Shown in pieces: positions 1 through 8,700 of a stretch of 64,000 nt of DNA. The notes below the pieces were generated by a model that was not told the origin of the DNA, ran no database searches, and saw only the letters and a list, made by a program, of their open reading frames with translations. The stretch comes from Thermomonas sp. (GTDB lineage: Bacteria > Pseudomonadota > Gammaproteobacteria > Xanthomonadales > Xanthomonadaceae): positions 1 to 64,000 of the forward strand of contig NZ_JAHRWW010000019.1 of the NCBI RefSeq assembly GCF_019104945.1. Direction: 5' to 3'. Positions within the stretch are counted from its first letter, which is position 1, and each line of letters begins with the position of its first letter. The translations under genes and the position numbers were made by a program.

Positions 1-2
1 TG

Positions 3-341
3 GTGCTGCACCCGAAGGTGGCCGAGGCCGCCGTGGTGGGTTTCCCGCACGATCTTAAAGGCCAAGGCATCTACGCCTACGTCACCCTCGTGGCGGGTGA
101 GCAGGAAAGCGAAGAGCTGCGCAAAGAGCTAATCACGTGGGTGCGTAAGGAAATTGGCCCGATCGCTACACCGGACTTTTTACAGTGGGCACCCGGCCTA
201 CCAAAAACCCGCAGCGGTAAAATCATGCGCCGCATCCTGCGCAAGATCGCCGAGAACGCGCCGGACCAGCTCGGCGATACCACCACACTGGCCGATCCGT
301 CGGTGGTGGAATCGTTGGTGAATAACCGCCGTCAGGCCTGA
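3..341 (+). CDS. acs: Acetyl-CoA synthetase, C-terminal fragment (5' end outside window)
   Basis: AMP-forming acetyl-CoA synthetase makes acetyl-CoA from acetate, ATP and CoA in the cytoplasm. Only the last 112 codons are present; the frame is open to the left edge, so the gene starts upstream. The fragment is the small mobile C-terminal domain of the ANL family. It includes the A10-type segment [12 protein letters not shown], whose lysine (K in SGK) is the adenylation-step catalytic lysine and the usual site of regulatory acetylation. It ends in TGA, followed by a stem-loop. The call is secure for the family; acetate specificity is inferred from the strong resemblance of this tail to Acs. 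Confidence 0.9.
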
Positions 342-370
342 CCGCACTCGCCCGTGACTGCAGCTAAGGG

Positions 371-389
371 AGTCTCAATCGCTGAGACT
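371..389. terminator. Stem-loop downstream of acs
   Basis: AGTCTCA and TGAGACT form a perfect 7-bp stem around a 5-nt loop, 29 bp after the acs stop. No clear T-run follows on either strand, so this may be a weak or Rho-assisted terminator or part of the 3' UTR. It also lies just beyond the 3' end of the convergent tracrRNA. Confidence 0.35.
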
Positions 390-399
390 GGAAGCGAGT

Positions 400-490
400 A
401 GAAAAGACAAGGGCCGACTAGGCCGGCCCTCAGATTTGGTGCATCTTTCAGCTTGTTGCCGGAAAGAGCGCAATTCCTGATCTACTTCTA
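400..490 (-). ncRNA. Putative type II-C tracrRNA, divergent from cas9
   Basis: Read on the minus strand, 486-455 is an anti-repeat to the 36-nt CRISPR repeat at 3621-3656. There is a 22-bp helix (465-486, including two G-U wobbles), then a 4-nt bulge on the anti-repeat side (461-464), then six more pairs (455-460). The 3' part (454-431) contains CTGAAAGATGCACC, resembling the nexus region of Neisseria-type II-C tracrRNAs, and the RNA ends in a GC-rich hairpin with a T-rich tail (430-402). Order anti-repeat, nexus, terminator is that of a tracrRNA. The 5' end and promoter are not determined; transcription is inferred. Confidence 0.8.
402..430 (-). terminator. Rho-independent terminator of the tracrRNA
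   Basis: On the minus strand AGGGCCG and CGGCCCT pair (7 bp, 7-nt loop; plus coordinates 410-430) and are followed by TGTCTTTT (402-409). This is the expected 3' end of the tracrRNA. Confidence 0.65.
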
Positions 491-538
491 GAATCAAAGC
501 TAGCAGCGGGGAAGTGTTGCGTCAACAGGGAGAGGCGA

Positions 539-1891
539 ATGAAGTTCAAGAAACGCTATCGCTTGGGTTTGGATATTGGCACCAATTCGATCGGCTGGTG
601 CGTGCTGCAGTTGAATGACGATGATTAGCCCGTCGGCATTATTCGCGCGGGGGCGCGGATTTTTTCCGATGGCCGCAGCCCCAAGACGTTGGCATCACTG
701 GCAGCGGATCGCCGCGCCGCACGGCAGATGCGCCGTCGGCATGATCGCGTGCTCAAGCGCATGGCGCGTTTCATGGATGGACTGGTTCGTTTTGGTCTGC
801 TGCCTAATGACGATGGCGAACGGCTCGCACTGTCAGCGCTCGACCCGTACGAGCTACGCCGCAAAGGCTTGGATGAGCCGCTGATCGCCTCCGAGTTAGG
901 GCGCGCACTGTACCACCTCGCCAAGCGGCGCGGCTTCAAGAGCAGTCGGAAGTCGAAGGGTGAAGATGAAAATGAGGCTGGTAAAATTGCGACAGCCATT
1001 ATCAAGACGCGCGAGCAGATCAAGACCGAAGGTTGCCGGACGATGGGCGAGTACCTAGCCAAGCGTCATGCTCAGCGCGAAACCGTGCGTGCGCGCACCA
1101 CGGCAGACGGCAAGGAGTACCTGCTCTACACGCAGCGCGCGATGGTTGCCGAGGAATTCGACGCGCTGTGGGCCGCACAGTCGGCACATCATCCGAATAT
1201 CTGCACGGAAGAAGCACGCGCCTTTTTGCGTGACACGCTGCTGTTCCAGCGGCCCTTGCTACCTGTCCAGCCCGGCCGCTGCATTTTCGAGGTCGAGGAG
1301 TTTCGCGAGCCGCTATGGTCGCCCTTGCAGCAGCAGTTCCGTGTCTTGCAGGAACTGAACAACCTGCGCGTCATCGATGGCTTGGAAGAGCGGGCATTGA
1401 CGCTGGAGGAACGCAATACCTTGCGCGACGCCCTGTATCGCTACGTGAAAGGCGATGGGAATTACTGCTATGACATCTACCGCTTGGATAACGGCAAGTG
1501 GGGTGGTGATGTCGTGGACATCTATACCGCTAACCGCCCCGGCTTCGGTCTTCGTTCCAAAGAGGCATACAAATCCGGCAAGCCGCTGGTGATGCGTTTG
1601 CGTCAAGGGGATATTCTGAAATTGGAGCACGATGGGCGATACAAGTTGATGTGCGTTGCACAATTCTCCGATGGGAAGATCATCATGTCTGAACATAACG
1701 AGGCCAATGCAGATGCTCGCAACAGACTTCGGAAGGAACAGGCCAGGAAGGTACAGGATGGAGATGATGTGCGAGTCGATGAAAGCTTCCAGTATTTACA
1801 AAAATCGCCGGATGGCCTGAGACAACTCGCCGCGCGGTTGGTCGGAGTTGACGTCCTTGGTTACGTTAACGACACAGGCTTCAAGGCGTGA
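539..1891 (+). pseudogene. cas9: Type II-C Cas9 relic: amber codon plus large internal deletion
   Basis: The frame starts at ATG 539 with a GGAGAG ribosome site. It encodes the RuvC-I motif (LGLDIGTNSIGW, catalytic Asp12), then TAG at 626-628 (codon 30). Past the stop the same frame continues with RAGARIF, the arginine-rich bridge helix (RRAARQMRRRHDRVLKR), KRRGFKSSRKSK and REC-lobe sequence. Near 1433-1445 it jumps to C-terminal PAM-interacting-domain sequence (KGDGNYCYDIYRLDNGKW). RuvC-II, HNH and RuvC-III are absent. The remnant is 450 codons, against roughly 1,000-1,100 for II-C Cas9, so about 600 residues are missing. No cleavage activity is possible. A TTG at 689 or an internal ATG could express a nuclease-free REC/PI protein, which is speculative. 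Confidence 0.93.
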
Positions 1892-1935
1892 CCATGCGAT
1901 AACATCCTTTTGGCTAATGCGGTAATCTTTAGGCT

Positions 1936-2226
1936 ATGAAGCCTTCTCAAGCCCTGCAGCAGCACCGTGCCGCGATCCGCCGGGTCGTGGCAGCGCATCG
2001 CGCAACCAGTCCGCGTGTGTTTGGATCGGTGCTGCATGGCGAGGACACCGAGGCTAGTGATCTGGATCTGTTGATCGACCCCACGCCGGGGATCACTCTG
2101 TTCGATATTGGTAGCATCATCCATGAGCTCGAGCAGTTGCTTGGCGTCTCTGTTGACGTATTGACGCCAAAGGCATTGCCGATGCGGTTCCGTGATGAGG
2201 TGCTCGCCGAGGCCGTGCCGGTATGA
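1936..2226 (+). CDS. mntA: MNT-type nucleotidyltransferase antitoxin
   Basis: A 96-residue minimal nucleotidyltransferase. The signature G30-S31 followed by SDLDLL (Asp42, Asp44) is the GSx10DxD active site of the MNT fold. Known MntA antitoxins disarm the partner HEPN toxin by adding AMP units to a tyrosine next to its RNase motif. The next gene (2223) is such a HEPN protein and overlaps by ATGA, so the two are translationally coupled. The pair lies 44 bp after the cas9 relic and just before cas1 on the same strand. All catalytic residues appear present. The function is inferred from family and pairing. Confidence 0.85.
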   Translation: MKPSQALQQHRAAIRRVVAAHRATSPRVFGSVLHGEDTEASDLDLLIDPTPGITLFDIGSIIHELEQLLGVSVDVLTPKALPMRFRDEVLAEAVPV

Positions 2227-2588
2227 AGCATGCCGAACGACGGTTGCGTGATTACCTTGCCGATATTGTGGAGGCGCAGGCGCGTATTTCCGAGTACGTA
2301 CGGACGGTGGACAAGGCGCAGTTCCTGATGAGCCATATCGTGCGGGATGCGGTTGCACGTAACTTCGAAGTTATTGGTGAGGCCAGTTAGCACTTGTTGC
2401 AGCGTTTCCCGGACTTCGCGGCCAACCATCCGGAGTTACCACTCACCAGCGCGTACAAATTGCGCAACGTGGTGGCGCATGGCTATCACGAAGTCGATTA
2501 TGAGATCGTGTGGAACACGATCCAGCAGGACCTTCCTGAACTGGCCCGCTTGGTTCGCACTTGCTTGGAGAGGCTGTCGGAGGGGTAG
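2223..2588 (+). pseudogene. hepT: HEPN-domain toxin (HepT-like) interrupted by an amber codon
   Basis: The frame begins at ATG 2223, overlapping mntA by four bases. It reads 55 residues, hits TAG at 2388-2390 (codon 56) and then continues in frame to 2588. The downstream part holds the Rx4HxY motif (RNVVAHGY, about residues 81-88), with the RNase Arg/His and the tyrosine that MntA partners AMPylate. A one-base change, CAG to TAG, would explain the stop. As read, the product would lack the catalytic motif, so the toxin is probably dead, or made only by readthrough. The downstream 64 codons could begin at an internal TTG (2394), but no ribosome site is evident. Confidence 0.85.
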
Positions 2589-2595
2589 TTTTGGC

Positions 2596-3582
2596 ATGAT
2601 CGGGCGCGTTGTCGAAATTGCAGGGGATTCGCGCTATCTGCATAAAGAGCGCGGGTTTCTTGTGGTGTCGCATCGGGGGGCCGAGCAAGGCCGTGTCCCA
2701 CTGGATGACATTGCGGCACTGATCTGCAACGCGCACGGCTTGGTGTACAGCAACAATTTACTGGTCGCGCTAGTTGAACGCGGTTGTCCCATCGTACTGT
2801 GCGGCAAGAACCACATGCCCGCAGGCATCATCTGCGCAGTGGACAGCCATCATCGCCAAGGAGCGCGGCTGGATGCGCAAGCAGCGGCATCGCTTCCAAC
2901 CAAGAAGCGGCTATGGCAGGAGTTAATTCGCAAGAAGCTCGGAATGCAAGCGGCAACGCTGGGTGCGTATGGGCTACCGGAGCCACCATTGCGCGCATTG
3001 ATCCCAAAAGTGACGTCAGGAGATGCGCGCAATATGGAAGGCGTTGGTGCGCGACGCTATTGGCGGTTGCTGTTCGGCCATCATTTTCGCCGGGAACAAG
3101 ATGGCGAAGGCATCAATGCCATGCTCAACTACGGCTATACCGTGCTGCGTGCTACTGTGGCGCGGCATCTTCTTGCTACAGGGCTTCATCCCGGCATGCC
3201 GCTGCATCATGCCAATGATGCCAATGCGCTGCGTCTAGTGGATGACGTGATGGAGCCGTTCCGACCATTGGTGGATGCGCAAGTCAGGCAGTTGGCCGAT
3301 CTAGGGCGCTATGATGTGGATACACCCAACAAGCGGGAGTTGTCCTTGATGATGGCACGGGGCATTCAAACGGAGGAAGGGCTGAGCCCTGTGTCGGTGG
3401 CAATCGAGCGTCTGTGCGTCTCGCTGGCACAAGTGTTCGAAAAGCAGCGCAAGCATTTAGCGTTGCCGTATGATCGGGCAGAAAGTGTTTCTGCATGGTT
3501 GGGAAATCGGGCTTCATTCGGTAATAGTTGGAGTGACAATGGCGCGGACGAAACGCTACCGCCCATTACCGAAGAAGAGTGA
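2596..3582 (+). CDS. cas1: CRISPR integrase Cas1 (type II-C)
   Basis: Cas1 is the metal-dependent integrase that, with Cas2, inserts new spacers at the leader end of an array. The 328-residue protein is full length for type II Cas1. It has the N-terminal beta domain followed by the alpha-helical catalytic domain. Metal-binding candidates are Glu148 (NMEG), His204/205 (PLHHAND) and Asp217 (DDVMEPFRP). ATG 2596 is chosen because GGAGGGG lies about 10 bp upstream and this is the family start; the open frame extends further upstream without Cas1 similarity. It starts 7 bp after the hepT stop. No cas2 follows: a CRISPR repeat begins 38 bp after the stop. Without Cas2 (and Csn2-independent II-C Cas9) adaptation is unlikely unless supplied in trans. 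Confidence 0.93.
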   Translation: MIGRVVEIAGDSRYLHKERGFLVVSHRGAEQGRVPLDDIAALICNAHGLVYSNNLLVALVERGCPIVLCGKNHMPAGIICAVDSHHRQGARLDAQAAASLPTKKRLWQELIRKKLGMQAATLGAYGLPEPPLRALIPKVTSGDARNMEGVGARRYWRLLFGHHFRREQDGEGINAMLNYGYTVLRATVARHLLATGLHPGMPLHHANDANALRLVDDVMEPFRPLVDAQVRQLADLGRYDVDTPNKRELSLMMARGIQTEEGLSPVSVAIERLCVSLAQVFEKQRKHLALPYDRAESVSAWLGNRASFGNSWSDNGADETLPPITEEE

Positions 3583-3620
3583 CGGCCCAAAGTCACCCAG
3601 CCAGCCTCTAAGTGGGTATC

Positions 3621-3656
3621 GAGATTAGCAGATCAGGAATTGCACTCTGGCAACGC
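3621..3656 (-). CRISPR. Solitary complete CRISPR repeat (36 nt)
   Basis: In crRNA orientation (minus strand) the repeat begins GCGTTGCCAGAGTGCAATTC and ends CTGATCTGCTAATCTC, 36 nt in total. It is recognised because it pairs with the anti-repeat at 455-486 and because its last 27 nt recur exactly at 5017-5043. No second repeat occurs within one spacer length on either side, so the array has been lost, apart from the distant copy. Confidence 0.7.
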
Positions 3657-3690
3657 TTTGATCACCCAATCACTCTGGCGAGTGATCCCG

Positions 3691-3793
3691 AAATAACGAA
3701 CAACAAAACAGGACGAAAGCAAATGCCTCAAAGCTCAGGCAAGAAACTCATGCACTCGGAGTTGACGGGAAGCTCCTTATGGAATTGTTAGGT
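3691..3793 (-). repeat. attC-like recombination site downstream of the relE-type gene
   Basis: On the minus strand the toxin stop is embedded in ACCTAAC, a match to the inverse core RYYYAAC of integron attC sites, followed by AATTCC. About 95 bp further on lies GTTATTT, in the core-site position. The interior has weak hairpin potential (GCCT...AGGC). A GTTATTT boundary is shared with the sites at 4986 and 21048. The interior is not a textbook attC, so this is a moderate-confidence call. Confidence 0.4.
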
Positions 3794-4105
3794 GTGTGGC
3801 TCTTGTCGTCTGAGTGCGCTACGCCTTAGTAAACGCTCTGTCCGCATGACGTGCAGGATAAAAACATGTTGACCATCAAATCTGTAAAAAATTCGGCAGG
3901 GCGGTTCGACGAGTTGCCGATAGCGTGTACGACTGCCGAGTTCTTTGGGGCGGCTGCCACTCTCTGGATGGTCTGCTAATTGGCGAACGCGCAGCATAAT
4001 ACGTTGTACCAACGCGCCAGCGGCAGCGATGTTCTCCAGCGCGATGTAGTCTGCGATAGCTTCAAGATCTGCGATGGCTGGCTCGGTCCAGATTACTTGA
4101 GCCAT
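3788..4105 (-). CDS. RelE/ParE-family toxin
   Basis: A 105-residue protein of the RelE/ParE fold. It begins VIWTEPAIADLEAIADYI, the typical N-terminal helix hairpin, and ends with the conserved RIFYRFDGQHVFILHVMRTER strand-and-turn region. Members either cleave mRNA on the ribosome (RelE) or poison gyrase (ParE); the sequence does not settle which. The start overlaps the antitoxin gene by 13 bp, typical of coupled antitoxin-toxin operons. The stop lies inside an attC-like inverse core, suggesting the pair is an integron gene cassette. No damage is visible. Confidence 0.85.
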   Translation of the reverse strand: MAQVIWTEPAIADLEAIADYIALENIAAAGALVQRIMLRVRQLADHPESGSRPKELGSRTRYRQLVEPPCRIFYRFDGQHVFILHVMRTERLLRRSALRRQEPHT

Positions 4106-4350
4106 TTGGATAGGCGTTTCTCGGCTTGCGTCTGAGTGAGAGTGCGACCTTCTGACACGGCCATCTCCCCACGGGCAATGCCTTCCAGGATGGACATGCG
4201 CTCTTGCTGCAGTTGATAGGTCTCAACGTCAACAAGGTAGGCGCTTGGGAGGCCGTGCTGAGTGATCAGGATCGGCTTCTTGTTGCGCTCAATATCCGCC
4301 AGCAAGTCAGTGGCTTGGCGCTTGAGGGTGGTGACGAGTTCAGTGCGCAT
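4093..4350 (-). CDS. Phd/YefM-family antitoxin
   Basis: An 85-residue antitoxin. The N-terminal half (TTLKRQATDLLADIERNKKPILITQHGLPSAYLVDVETYQ) is the Phd/YefM DNA-binding dimerisation domain; the rest is the toxin-neutralising tail (EKRLSKWLK). It is expected to neutralise the downstream RelE/ParE toxin and repress its own operon. An imperfect inverted repeat lies immediately upstream of the start (4352-4373), as expected for autoregulation. The pair lies between attC-like sites and between two CRISPR repeat copies, so it is probably acquired DNA. Confidence 0.87.
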   Translation of the reverse strand: MRTELVTTLKRQATDLLADIERNKKPILITQHGLPSAYLVDVETYQLQQERMSILEGIARGEMAVSEGRTLTQTQAEKRLSKWLK

Positions 4351-4351
4351 G

Positions 4352-4373
4352 AAGTGACACTACAGTATCACTT
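4352..4373 (-). promoter_or_regulatory. Probable Phd operator/promoter
   Basis: AAGTGACAC and GTATCACTT form an inverted repeat (8 of 9 positions) around a 4-bp centre, directly upstream of the antitoxin ATG. Phd-type antitoxins bind such palindromes to repress their operons. The exact -10/-35 are not assigned. Confidence 0.5.
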
Positions 4374-4403
4374 GCGAAGAGACAACACCCTGCTCCGTGC
4401 GCA

Positions 4404-4458
4404 ATCTAATACTGGGTTAAGCTGACGCGCGTTCGGCTTGAATACGAATGGTTATGTC
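4404..4458 (-). repeat. attC site (59-base element-like) at the 3' end of the DUF6933-like gene
   Basis: Read on the minus strand the segment runs TAACCATTCGTATTCAAGCC, GAACGCGCGTC, AGCTTAACCCAGTATTAGAT. It lines up with the classical attC plan (TAACAATTC, TTCAAGCCGA, central loop, GGCTTAACTC, GTTAGAT). The GCTT/AAGC arms are inverted, with an unpaired base, as is typical of folded attC bottom strands. The core G is changed to A (ATTAGAT), which may reduce activity. The TAA stop of the gene lies in the inverse core, as in real cassettes. Confidence 0.65.
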
Positions 4459-4970
4459 GCAACGCTTTGTAGCAGTGCTGCGGTCACTTCCAGAGGGCTT
4501 TTGAAGCCAAGGCGCTTGGACGGGAGCGAATTGATGTGCATGACGATCTCGCTGATGCTGCAACGAGATAGGCCTCCATCATGCTCAATGAAGGCCGCGT
4601 AGTCCAAAGCGATGTTAGTCAATGATCCGAGCAAAGAGGGGTCATTTGCAGGCGATACGGTGCCAGTGGAATAGTCATGAAGAATGCGATCTAAGACTGC
4701 GCCCGAATAGCCTGCCATTTCTAGGACGAGCAACAGGCCGCGGATGAATGAAGTGAACAATTTCCCGGGGGTGATTCGTTCGCCTTCCGTCATGACAAAG
4801 CTAATAAGTGTGCGCTCACTCATGTAGACGAATACGTTCACGTCATCGACTTTGGTGAGCGTGACATACCAATTGCCAAGAATTGCGCCAGTCGATTCGG
4901 CTGGCATGAGGCTTTCACGTTTCAGCTTGGAACGTGTAGCAACTGCACGAGTGAGTTTTAGTGATGCCAC
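4452..4970 (-). CDS. DUF6933-like cassette-borne protein
   Basis: A 172-residue cytoplasmic protein without signal peptide or membrane segments. The N-terminal region (LGNWYVTLTKVDDVNVFVYMSERTL) resembles DUF6933, a family of unknown function often found in mobile gene cassettes; the match is from memory and only moderate. Start ATG 4970 follows ATGAGGGTCTCGTGGC, so a GAGGG ribosome site is plausible. The stop is inside an attC site and a truncated attC-like segment precedes the start, so the gene has the layout of an integron cassette (one ORF plus its attC). Its base composition looks less GC-rich than the flanking core genes. No function can be given. Confidence 0.55.
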   Translation of the reverse strand: MASLKLTRAVATRSKLKRESLMPAESTGAILGNWYVTLTKVDDVNVFVYMSERTLISFVMTEGERITPGKLFTSFIRGLLLVLEMAGYSGAVLDRILHDYSTGTVSPANDPSLLGSLTNIALDYAAFIEHDGGLSRCSISEIVMHINSLPSKRLGFKSPLEVTAALLQSVAT

Positions 4971-4985
4971 GAGACCCTCATTGCA

Positions 4986-5016
4986 AAATAACGCTGAGTT
5001 GGCTTGAACGAATTGA
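4986..5016 (-). repeat. Truncated attC-like segment fused to a CRISPR repeat
   Basis: On the minus strand CAATTCGTTCAAGCC is followed directly by AACTCAGCGTTATTT. These are the left and right parts of a classical attC with the central hairpin loop missing. The RYYYAAC inverse core is absent; in its place, at 5017, is the end of a 27-nt CRISPR repeat copy. This looks like a recombination or deletion joint. Confidence 0.5.
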
Positions 5017-5043
5017 GAGATTAGCAGATCAGGAATTGCACTC
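5017..5043 (-). CRISPR. Second, 3'-truncated CRISPR repeat copy
   Basis: Identical over 27 nt to plus-strand 3621-3647; the remaining 9 nt of the repeat are degenerate. It is in the same orientation as the complete copy, 1,396 bp away. It may be the degenerate terminal repeat of the former array. No further copies were seen nearby. Confidence 0.6.
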
Positions 5044-5105
5044 AGGCCGGAGCATTAGTGTTGAAGGCAGGGAAGTCACCAGCCGAGAGCTAGCGTGGCT
5101 TTGAA

Positions 5106-5705
5106 CTAACCCAGTAGCGGCTGCACGAGTTGATCCAAACACCGACGCAGTAGCGCCGGGTCGAGGTCGGGTTGGCGTGTTTGGCGCACTTTTAGCCCTT
5201 CAATAACAAGGCGCAGCATGAGCGCCTTGGCTGGTACGTCGGCCTCGGCAATGCCAAGGCCGCCCTGCGTTTGAGGTTTGCGCAACCAGTCTTCGATGCG
5301 TGCTTGTACGGTTTCATCAAAGCGCCGCAGCGCCACGCCGATCACTGGATCACGCGCGGCCTCGGCGGAGATTTCCATAATCAGCCCTGGGTCCATCCAG
5401 AGCCGGTCATCTTCGTGACGGCGGCGGCGCGTGTAGAAATCGTCAAACATGTGCTCGGCCAGCGATTGGTGGCTATGTTTGGGATGGTTGATCTCGTCGG
5501 CGATCTGCTCCAGCTGCAGTTCCACAATGCTGCGGATGATTTGGCTTTTACTTTCGAAATATCGGTAGATCAGCCCCGGGCTCATCTGCGCGGTCTCGGC
5601 AATTTTCGCCATCGACGCACCGTGGAAGCCGCGCTCGGCAAAGCACGTCTGCGCGGCATCCAAAATACGCTTGCGCTGGGCCTGCGCGCGCGACGGATCA
5701 GCCAT
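5106..5705 (-). CDS. TetR-family repressor of the RND operon
   Basis: A 199-residue regulator. The N-terminal helix-turn-helix ([20 protein letters not shown], then [16 protein letters not shown]) is a canonical TetR DNA-binding domain. The C-terminal part is the ligand-sensing dimer domain. It is the last gene of the minus-strand operon adaptor-pump-regulator and overlaps the pump stop by 8 bp, so it is probably translated with it. The likely target is the GAATG-GT-CATTC palindrome at 10118-10129 upstream of the adaptor gene, which would make it a self-limiting repressor released by pump substrates. The ligand is unknown. Confidence 0.88.
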
Positions 5706-8700
5706 GATCGCTCTCTTGCGTCATCGGTGCAGCTCCATGCTGATGGGCGCGCTTGCGGTCAAACAAGCGCACCACCACCAGATAGAACAGCGGAATGAAG
5801 AAAATGCCGAGCGTAGTGCCGACGATCATCCCGCCCAGCACGCCGGTACCGATCGCGATCTGCGCGCCGGAGCCAGCACCAACCGCCTTGGCCATCGGCA
5901 ACACGCCAAGGCCAAACGCCAGCGAGGTCATTACGATCGGGCGCAAGCGATCGCGTACTGCGTGCATGATCGCCTCGATCAGATGCGTGCCTTGATCGTA
6001 ATACTGCTTGGCAAACTCGATGATCAGCACCGCGTTTTTGCTGGTCAGACCCACCGTGGTCAACATCGCCACTTGGAAGTACACGTCGCGCTCCAACCCG
6101 CGCAGCAGGGTGAACAGCACCGCGCCGAGGATGCCCAAGGGGGCCACCATCAATACCGCGGTTGGCACGTTCCAGCTTTCATACAGCGCAGCCAGCGCGA
6201 GGAACACGATCAGCAGCGATAACCCATACAGCAGCACCAACTGGTTGCCAGCCGCGCGCTCTTCGAACGATTGCCCAGTCCATTCCAGACCAATTCCCTT
6301 TGGCAGTTGGGCCACCAGTCGTTCGACTTCGTTCATGGCATCGCCGGAGCTTACGCCGGGGACGGCTTGGCCCTGAATTTCCAGCGAGCCGCTGCCGTTG
6401 TAGCGCTCCAGACGCGGCGAACCGTATTCCCAATGCGCACTGCCGAAGGACGAGAACGGCACCATCTGGCCACTGGCGTTACGCACCGACCAGCGGTTCA
6501 TATCGCCGGGCAGCATGCGGAACGGCGCGTCGGCCTGCAGATAGACGCGCTTGACCCGGCCGCGGTCGATGAAATCATCCACATAGCTGCCGCCCCAAGC
6601 GGTACTCAGGCTGCTATTGATATCGGCAATCGACAGCCCCAACGCCTGCGCTTTGGCATGGTCGATGGTAAGCCGCAGCTGTGGCTGGTCTTCCTGCCCG
6701 TTCGGGCGCACGCCGGTGATCAATTTGCTTTGCTTGGCAAGGCCAAGGAACTGGTTACGCGCGGCCATCATCGCTTCGTGGCCCAGCCCGCCGTTGTCCA
6801 TCAGGTTGAAGGAGAACCCAGCGGTGGAACCTAGACCTTGAATGGCCGGTGGCGACATGGTGAAGGCCATCGCGTCCTTGATCTTCGAGAGCGCGCCCAT
6901 CGCGCGCCCGGCAATTGCCGAGGCGGACTGGTCTTGCGCCGGGCGCTCTTCCCAGTCCTTCAGCTTGACGAAGCCCATGCCGGTGTTTTGGCCGCTGCCG
7001 CCGAAGCTGAAGCCCTGCACGGTGAACACCGATTCGATATTGCCCGCTTCGTTGTCGATGAAGTACTTACCGAGCTTCTCGATCGACGCCTGAGTACGTT
7101 CCGAAGTGGCGCCCACCGGTGCCTGCACGATATTCATCAACACGCCCTGATCTTCTTCCGGAAGGAAGCCGGTGGGGGTGCGCAGGAACATCAATGCAGT
7201 CACCACTCCAAGCGCGAGATAGATCAATATGAAGCGCTTGGGGCGGCCGAGCATGCCGCGCACACCGCGCTGGTAGCGCAGGCTTCCGGCATCAAACTTG
7301 GCATTGAACCAGTCGAGGAAGCGCCCGATGGGGCCGTGACCATGTTCGAGATGGCCGCCCTTGGCCACCGGCTTGAGCATGGTCGCGCACAGCGCCGGGG
7401 TCAGCACAATAGCCACCAGCACCGACAGCGCCATTGCCGTGACAATGGTGGCGGTGAACTGGCGGTAGATCACGCCGGTGGAGCCTCCCATCATGCCCAT
7501 CGGCACGAACACTGCGGCCAGCACCACACCAATACCGATCAGCGCGCCGGTGATTTGATCCATCGACTTCTTCGCCGCTTCCTTCGGTGAAAGCCCTTCC
7601 TCGCTCATCAGGCGTTCGACGTTTTCCACCACCACGATGGCGTCATCCACCAGCAGGCCAATGGCCAAGACGCTGGCGAACATGGTCAGCATATTGATGG
7701 AAAAACCCAGCGCGTACAGCACCGCGAAGGTGCCCAGTAGCACTACTGGCACTGCAATGGTGGGAATAAGTGTGGCGCGGAAATTTCCCAAGAATAGGAA
7801 CATCACCAAGAACACCAGCACCACGGCTTCGATCAAGGTCTGGATCACGCCCTTGATCGATACTTCCACGAACGGGGTGGTATCAAACGGATACACCACC
7901 TCCAGCCCGGCCGGAAAATACGGTTTGATCTTGTCCATCTCCGCGCGCACAGCGGCGGCGGTGTCCAGCGCGTTGGCGCCAGTGGCCAGCATCACTGCCA
8001 TGCCGCTGGCGGGCTTGCCGTTGTAACGCGAAGTGGTGCCGTAGCTGTCGGCGCCCAGCTCAACCCGGGCCACGTCGCCAAGGCGCAGTGACGCGCCATC
8101 GGCTTGGGTGCGCAGCAGGATGTTGCGGAACTGCTCTGGCGTCTGCAGCCGGTCCTGCGCGTTGATGGTGGCGTTGAGCTGCTGGCCTTTGACCGCCGGC
8201 GCGCCACCGAGCTGACCCACCGCCACCTGCGCGTTCTGCGCTTTCAGTGCGGCGGTGATATCGGCGATCGACAGGTCGTAGGTCTTGAGCTTGTCCGGGT
8301 CCAGCCAGATCCGCATGGCGTACTTGGTGCCAAACAGCTGGGTGCTGCCCACGCCGGGCACGCGCGCGATGCGGTCGCTGATCGAGCTGGCGATGTAATC
8401 ACCAATGTCTTGCTCGTTCATGCGGCCGTCGCTGGAAATGAACGCCGTCACCATCAAGAAGCCGCTGCGTGCTTTGTTGACCCGCACACCCTGCTGCTGC
8501 ACCGATTGCGGCAGCAGCGCCATTGCGGTCTGCAGCTTGTTTTGCACCTGCACCTGCGCGGTGTCTGGGTCAGTGCCACTTTTGAAACTGAGGCTGACGC
8601 TGGCTTGGCCGTCGGACTGGCTGCTGGCCGACATGTACTGCAGGCCGTCTAGCCCTTGCATCGCCTGTTCGATGATCTGGGTCACCGAGTTTTCCACCAC

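Follow-up and report, generated by a model that had tools for sequence, protein, structure and literature searches.

The window analysed here (the whole 64,000-nucleotide stretch of Thermomonas sp. DNA) begins at the first base of its contig; positions 1-341 belong to the 3' end of an acetate-CoA ligase-like gene, and a subtype II-C-like CRISPR locus follows (Table 1). Between the cas9 and cas1 genes of this locus are the genes of a minimal nucleotidyltransferase and a HEPN ribonuclease, mntA and hepT. All four are on the plus strand, with 44 bp from the cas9 stop to mntA and 7 bp from hepT to the cas1 start, coordinates that confirm the placement and spacing given for the pair in the first-pass annotation of the window.

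Table 1. Features of the CRISPR locus and of the gene pair inserted in it (window positions)
Feature	Position	Strand	Remarks
Likely tracrRNA region	408-486	-	Upstream of cas9; anti-repeat 465-486, terminator-like hairpin 432-408
cas9 remnant	539-1891	+	Nonsense codon 626-628; in-frame deletion near 1435-1445; stop 1889-1891
mntA, minimal nucleotidyltransferase (AMPylating antitoxin)	1936-2226	+	96 aa, open; PF01909, PADLOC PDC-S09, GSX10DXD
hepT, HEPN ribonuclease toxin	2223-2588	+	Amber-split at 2388-2390; PF01934 on both pieces; RX4HXY in C-terminal piece
cas1 (type II)	2596-3582	+	Open; ATG 2596; TIGR03639 218.2 bits, cut-off 120
cas2 N-terminal remnant	3539-3620	+	By-eye comparison with the cas2-like ORF of G036
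CRISPR repeat remnant	3621-3651	-	97% identity over 31 nt to the copy at 5017-5047
Second CRISPR repeat remnant	5017-5047	-	phd-parE pair and DUF6933 gene between both repeats

As a CRISPR system the locus is dead, with decayed cas9 and cas2 genes and an array of which two repeats remain. Such decay was part of the first-pass annotation, and the comparison both bore it out and extended it to the nonsense codon in cas9 (626-628), a deletion of ~590 codons in the same gene, and a truncated cas2. The cas9 piece at 689-1888 matched TIGR01865 with 180.6 bits (cut-off 100), and the window pieces align to residues 1-29, 31-301, and 878-1029 of the open Cas9 of a related locus, in genome G036, the comparison from which the size of the in-frame deletion was obtained. 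By their motif strings, RuvC-II (505), HNH (589), and RuvC-III (732, all in G036 numbering) lay in the stretch removed by this deletion; with the HNH, RuvC-II, and RuvC-III region absent and a nonsense codon present, a functional Cas9 with RuvC and HNH is no longer encoded. The open cas1 is the sole match to the type II Cas1 model in the window's own genome. The truncated cas2, compared by eye with the cas2-like ORF of G036, ends in a CRISPR repeat. In another relative, G184 (L023, 4280-4945), cas1 is cut to its first codons and passes straight into the CRISPR array, a lesion like that of the window cas2, as both are deletions ending in CRISPR repeats.

With subtype II-C, the locus shares Cas9 and a type II Cas1 (TIGR01865 and TIGR03639 both above cut-off), a tracr-like anti-repeat, and repeats resembling those of related loci (G270, G184, G036, and G240), and csn2 or cas4 was absent among the ten frames scanned. 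It departs from the subtype in the extra genes between cas9 and cas1, which together with the truncation of cas2 break the cas9-cas1-cas2 order without a fourth gene, and in the decay of cas9, cas2, and the array. The anti-repeat forms an inverted-repeat match of 22-28 nt to both CRISPR repeats, and the terminator-like stem has 11 pairs on the minus strand; terminator-like sites in 350-3700 numbered 7, compared with 3.4 in shuffled sequences. No Rfam match was obtained in window positions 1-8000 at E values up to 1.

The remains of the array hold a second toxin-antitoxin (TA) pair, phd-parE, which with the DUF6933 gene lies on the minus strand between the two repeats (3650-5017). An element at 3636-3800, starting directly after the first repeat, is common to other genera of the family (G169, G055, G194, and G172), with 85-94% identity over 49-55 bp, further likeness beyond that by eye, and a GTTAGGY-like core at its end. 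It resembles an integron attC-type site and may account for the entry of the phd-parE segment into the array.

The identity of the pair between cas9 and cas1 was assessed with several family models. MntA matched PF01909 (E 4.6e-8; 33.8 bits, cut-off 21) and the PADLOC family PDC-S09 (E 7.5e-31), and the two pieces of HepT, searched apart, both matched PF01934 (E 2.4e-6 and 7.4e-14; 27.7 and 51.9 bits, cut-off 23.5). That the toxin is broken by an amber codon, as the first-pass annotation claimed, was also seen here, a TAG splitting hepT at 2388-2390. The NCBIfam equivalog cut-offs (60 each) were missed, with 30.9 bits for MntA (NF047752) and 31.5 bits for the C-terminal piece of HepT (NF047751); the latter score is lowered because HepT was scored as two pieces, and the N-terminal piece gave nothing with NF047751. 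According to the account of Yao et al. (2020, PMC7641770), HepT is an RNase that MntA silences by adding AMPs to the tyrosine of RX4HXY, and both this motif and the GSX10DXD motif of MntA are tied to function. In common with this type VII system, the window pair has the two motifs, the antitoxin gene in first position, a 4-bp overlap of the genes, and relatives on both chromosomes and plasmids. It differs from it in lying between cas9 and cas1, in missing the NCBIfam equivalog cut-offs, and in its toxin frame, which the amber codon interrupts.

A scan covering 84,980 species genomes confirmed 166 relatives of MntA, spread over many proteobacterial families, and the 80 nearest were kept. In 57 of these, an ORF of 80-170 aa stands close behind mntA, with a 4-bp overlap in 51 cases, and RX4HXY was present in the downstream ORF of 53 of the 80. 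Among the remaining relatives, those inspected included some with hepT pieces containing stops or a frame change and some with no match or a contig end. Because other relatives of MntA have a broken hepT, the combination of a dead hepT with an open mntA is not peculiar to the window; it was observed, with an internal stop in hepT, in L036, L092, and L103, loci without detected Cas1. MntA was further found on 1,474 of 72,556 plasmid records (967 predicted conjugative), at 60-80% identity in 16 records and below 60% in 1,458, while 50,697 phage records gave no match at E 1e-5.

The position of the pair among cas genes could mean that it takes part in the immune response, as a back-up suicide arm co-regulated with the cas genes and bringing about abortive infection when Cas9 fails. 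We regard this as improbable. The MntA family is included in PADLOC under the PDC-S09 match given above, where the label PDC presumably denotes a candidate defence family. The frames of the locus, however, showed no sensor domain in the Pfam scan, and a profile search for Cas1 in the flanking DNA of the 80 nearest MntA loci (at most 8 kb, shorter where a contig ended) was negative throughout. A search of the same 80 loci by tblastn with the window proteins found neither Cas9 nor Cas1. The precedent for such a role comes from types I and III, in which HEPN effectors are described as CRISPR accessories (Anantharaman et al. 2013, PMC3710099).

In the immediate surroundings of the pair, no promoter of its own was predicted: there were 0 sigma-70-like sites in 350-3700, compared with 1.7 in shuffles, in a weak test whose consensus may not suit the organism. 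Nor did a conserved box emerge upstream of mntA from 81 stretches of 50 bases, compared unaligned, in which one position exceeded 55%. No transposase or integrase reading frame was seen between the window cas9 and cas1. A 7-bp direct repeat, TTTTGGC (1908-1914 and 2589-2595), brackets mntA-hepT; it is only suggestive, and either a target-site duplication or coincidence could account for it.

To place this arrangement among type II loci, ~1,440 genomes were surveyed in overlapping sets, yielding 77 distinct type II cas1 loci, with those found repeatedly across searches counted once. The type II Cas1 model was searched in 395 genomes of the family, 369 of the class, and 398 of the phylum; the window Cas1 was searched in 25 genomes of the genus, 233 of a second family of the order, 119 relatives of G036, 11 of the genus of G240, 40 of the family of G631, and two single genomes. 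In the family set, nine genomes had Cas1 matches above the cut-off, and those below it were dropped, being taken as other CRISPR types. The comparison of cas genes in the first DNA search used only G036 and G184 besides the window. Gaps were measured to a cas1 start extrapolated from the tblastn match rather than to an annotated start, and an upstream frame was called cas9 by its length (at least 230 aa; at least 70 for L152, whose short frame lies at a contig end). An iterated profile confirmed 73 of the 75 upstream frames as Cas9-like, the exceptions being L152 and L163, and one of the loci, L165, has a stop in cas1.

In 73 of the 77 loci, a long frame ends -31 to +62 bp from the cas1 start, and 71 of these 73 frames are Cas9-like by the iterated profile, which upholds the first-pass statement that cas1 normally follows cas9 directly. 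In two loci (L159/L195 and L164/L196), cas9 is head to head with cas1 and was not counted as abutting. Two named plasmid loci, outside the 77, also abut, one of them with cas9 annotated as two pieces. Genes were present in the junction in only two of the 77: the window, with a gap of 704 bp, and G036, with 764 bp. The first-pass annotation had proposed that a pair confined to this isolate would be a chance insertion. Among the loci surveyed, the cas9-mntA-hepT-cas1 order was indeed found only in the window, yet the closely related G036 has its cas9-cas1 slot filled by another TA-like module, which argues against plain chance.

In G036, the cas9, cas1, and cas2-like ORFs are open and three array repeats were observed. 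The gap between its cas9 and cas1 contains, on the same strand, a zeta-toxin-like kinase, matching PF06414 (33.8 bits, cut-off 22.3) and PF13671, and a 57-aa ORF that overlaps the kinase by 4 bp; the combination is that of a zeta-toxin kinase with a small partner gene. The 57-aa ORF matched no Pfam family. On plasmid pSYSG, a related kinase is followed by a 59-aa ORF with the same 4-bp overlap, and the 57-aa and 59-aa partners align with a score of 55 (best of 500 shuffles, 40). The G036 pair is a TA-like module unrelated to mntA-hepT, with the small ORF as its putative antitoxin. Its zeta-like kinase has matches on 443 plasmid records. The pSYSG region (L224, 1194-2189) joins a nucleotidyltransferase-family gene, the zeta-like kinase, and the 59-aa gene, thereby mixing an MNT-like gene with a zeta module; the G036 gap has no room for a nucleotidyltransferase-family gene of this kind. 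A scan of viral contigs with the G036 Cas1 gave 15 candidate stretches, none of which was confirmed.

The relationships of the two occupied loci were examined in a Cas1 tree of 28 loci, those above chosen bit limits. The window and G036 grouped together at 92/79, below the tool's 95/80 mark for firm support; the grouping of both with G240 received 100/99, and that of nine loci, including six further close relatives, 99/99. By plain identity, G240, whose junction is empty, and G036 are equally near to the window (67.6% over 302 and 66.5% over 328, respectively). The junction is empty in the close relatives G240, G270, G1356, G1167, G1285, G1153, and G408, as well as in G184. Because these other close relatives show an empty junction, both modules are best read as insertions. 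Most simply, the empty junction would be the ancestral state, and the modules would have come by two separate insertions or by one insertion followed by a swap.

An origin of the arrangement in the assembly, a chimeric contig having joined mntA-hepT to cas genes, must be considered for a draft genome of 56 contigs with a contig start ~1.9 kb from the pair. This explanation is very improbable: the cas9 C-terminus and the cas1 start on either side of the insert are both correct, with the insert exactly between them, and the junction of the related G036 locus, from a different genome, is occupied as well.

We favor, with a probability of roughly 65%, the reading that a mobile mntA-hepT was inserted, co-oriented, at the cas9-cas1 junction of a II-C-like operon, the junction being permissive and the module a selfish passenger. 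The mobile pair would have landed between the cas9 stop and the cas1 start, where no gene is broken, and the junction in the operon of this sublineage would tolerate insertions, a slot of which mobile modules made use. The pair would be read together with cas1 from the operon. When intact, as can be extrapolated from the family, MntA would add AMPs to the tyrosine of the HepT RX4HXY motif and so silence the RNase; in the window, such silencing would belong to the past, because hepT is cut before the active-site motif. If the module stabilized the cas genes at all, it would have done so passively, as a by-product, and this did not save the window copy. Two TA-like modules in related loci, at one site and both co-oriented, are nevertheless more than a random passenger predicts. 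The chance that the second occupied locus would be one of the two nearest among the other 76 is 2/76 (a single case, and not a robust test), a coincidence that leaves room for selection.

Selection could have acted through addiction. If losing the segment exposes cells to the toxin, the TA module would stabilize the cas genes, and in the window the toxin would have died first or together with cas9, with decay following. A guard role of mntA-hepT is possible on the gene arrangement: the pair shares the strand of cas9 and cas1 with tight spacing, and G036 combines open cas9, cas1, and cas2-like frames with its own TA-like module at the equivalent position. The states of module and cas9 also go together, both open in G036 and both broken in the window, although this co-occurrence has n=2 and the order of the lesions cannot be told from it. 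Moreover, 75 of the 77 type II loci are without such a module in the junction, and a protein antitoxin would be expected to protect only its own segment. Addiction as the explanation of the insert is, on balance, unlikely.

A guard of a known kind is CreTA, an RNA toxin-antitoxin described as guarding a I-B locus (PMC12737573). The proposed guard would have in common with it the role of an addiction keeping the cas genes, but the CreTA antitoxin is a crRNA-like RNA that needs Cas6 and Cascade (PMC12737573), and no crRNA-like antitoxin adjoining the toxin was found in window positions 1851-2650 or in the G036 gap. The best repeat-like match differed from the repeat core at 6 of 19 positions in the former (mean 7.4 and minimum 4 over 200 shuffles) and at 9 of 24 in the latter (shuffle mean 10.2, minimum 7); the search counted only mismatches to the repeat core, and the known repeat and anti-repeat score 0 and 2. 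Neither module having a CreTA-like repeat nearby, any guarding would have to be that of an ordinary cis addiction module. Somewhat less probable still than addiction is the broader proposal that the cas9-cas1 junction serves, within a single II-C sublineage, as a docking site for interchangeable TA modules (mntA-hepT in one member, the zeta kinase with its small partner in the sister), which the operon carries and which keep the cas genes from loss. If true, no earlier guard of this sort in a type II operon, and none built from exchangeable protein modules, would be on record in the literature searched.

The insertion of a mobile passenger remains the preferred reading, and its setting has partial precedents. 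TA pairs inside type I cas loci and CreTA, a TA able to guard a CRISPR locus, have already been reported. A HEPN-MNT pair is said to lie near a I-D locus in Aphanizomenon, in work attributed to Songailiene in 2020. In the collection of Zhang and Ye (2013, PMC3936711), TA pairs within cas loci are mostly on the cas strand and occur only in type I; the window shares with them a TA pair within or near cas genes and differs in being of type II. ABC-HEPN genes are described as sporadic in the CRISPR-Cas neighborhoods of Neisseria and Kingella (Anantharaman et al. 2013, PMC3710099), and PcrIIC1 is entered in the 2025 classification as accessory to certain II-C loci (PMC12669027). In open-licence literature, none of the titles and abstract beginnings among the matches listed mentioned TA genes placed within or between the cas genes of type II systems, which is weak evidence. 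A type II slot occupied by different protein TA modules in related lineages would offer a natural test of whether addiction stabilizes CRISPR loci, because empty, occupied-and-open, and occupied-and-dead junctions all exist in related bacteria. At a greater distance from the cas genes, a TA pair of the MazF type was observed ~2 kb beyond cas2 in the type II locus carried by the Limnohabitans plasmid pTEGF4 (L231, 7332-7875).
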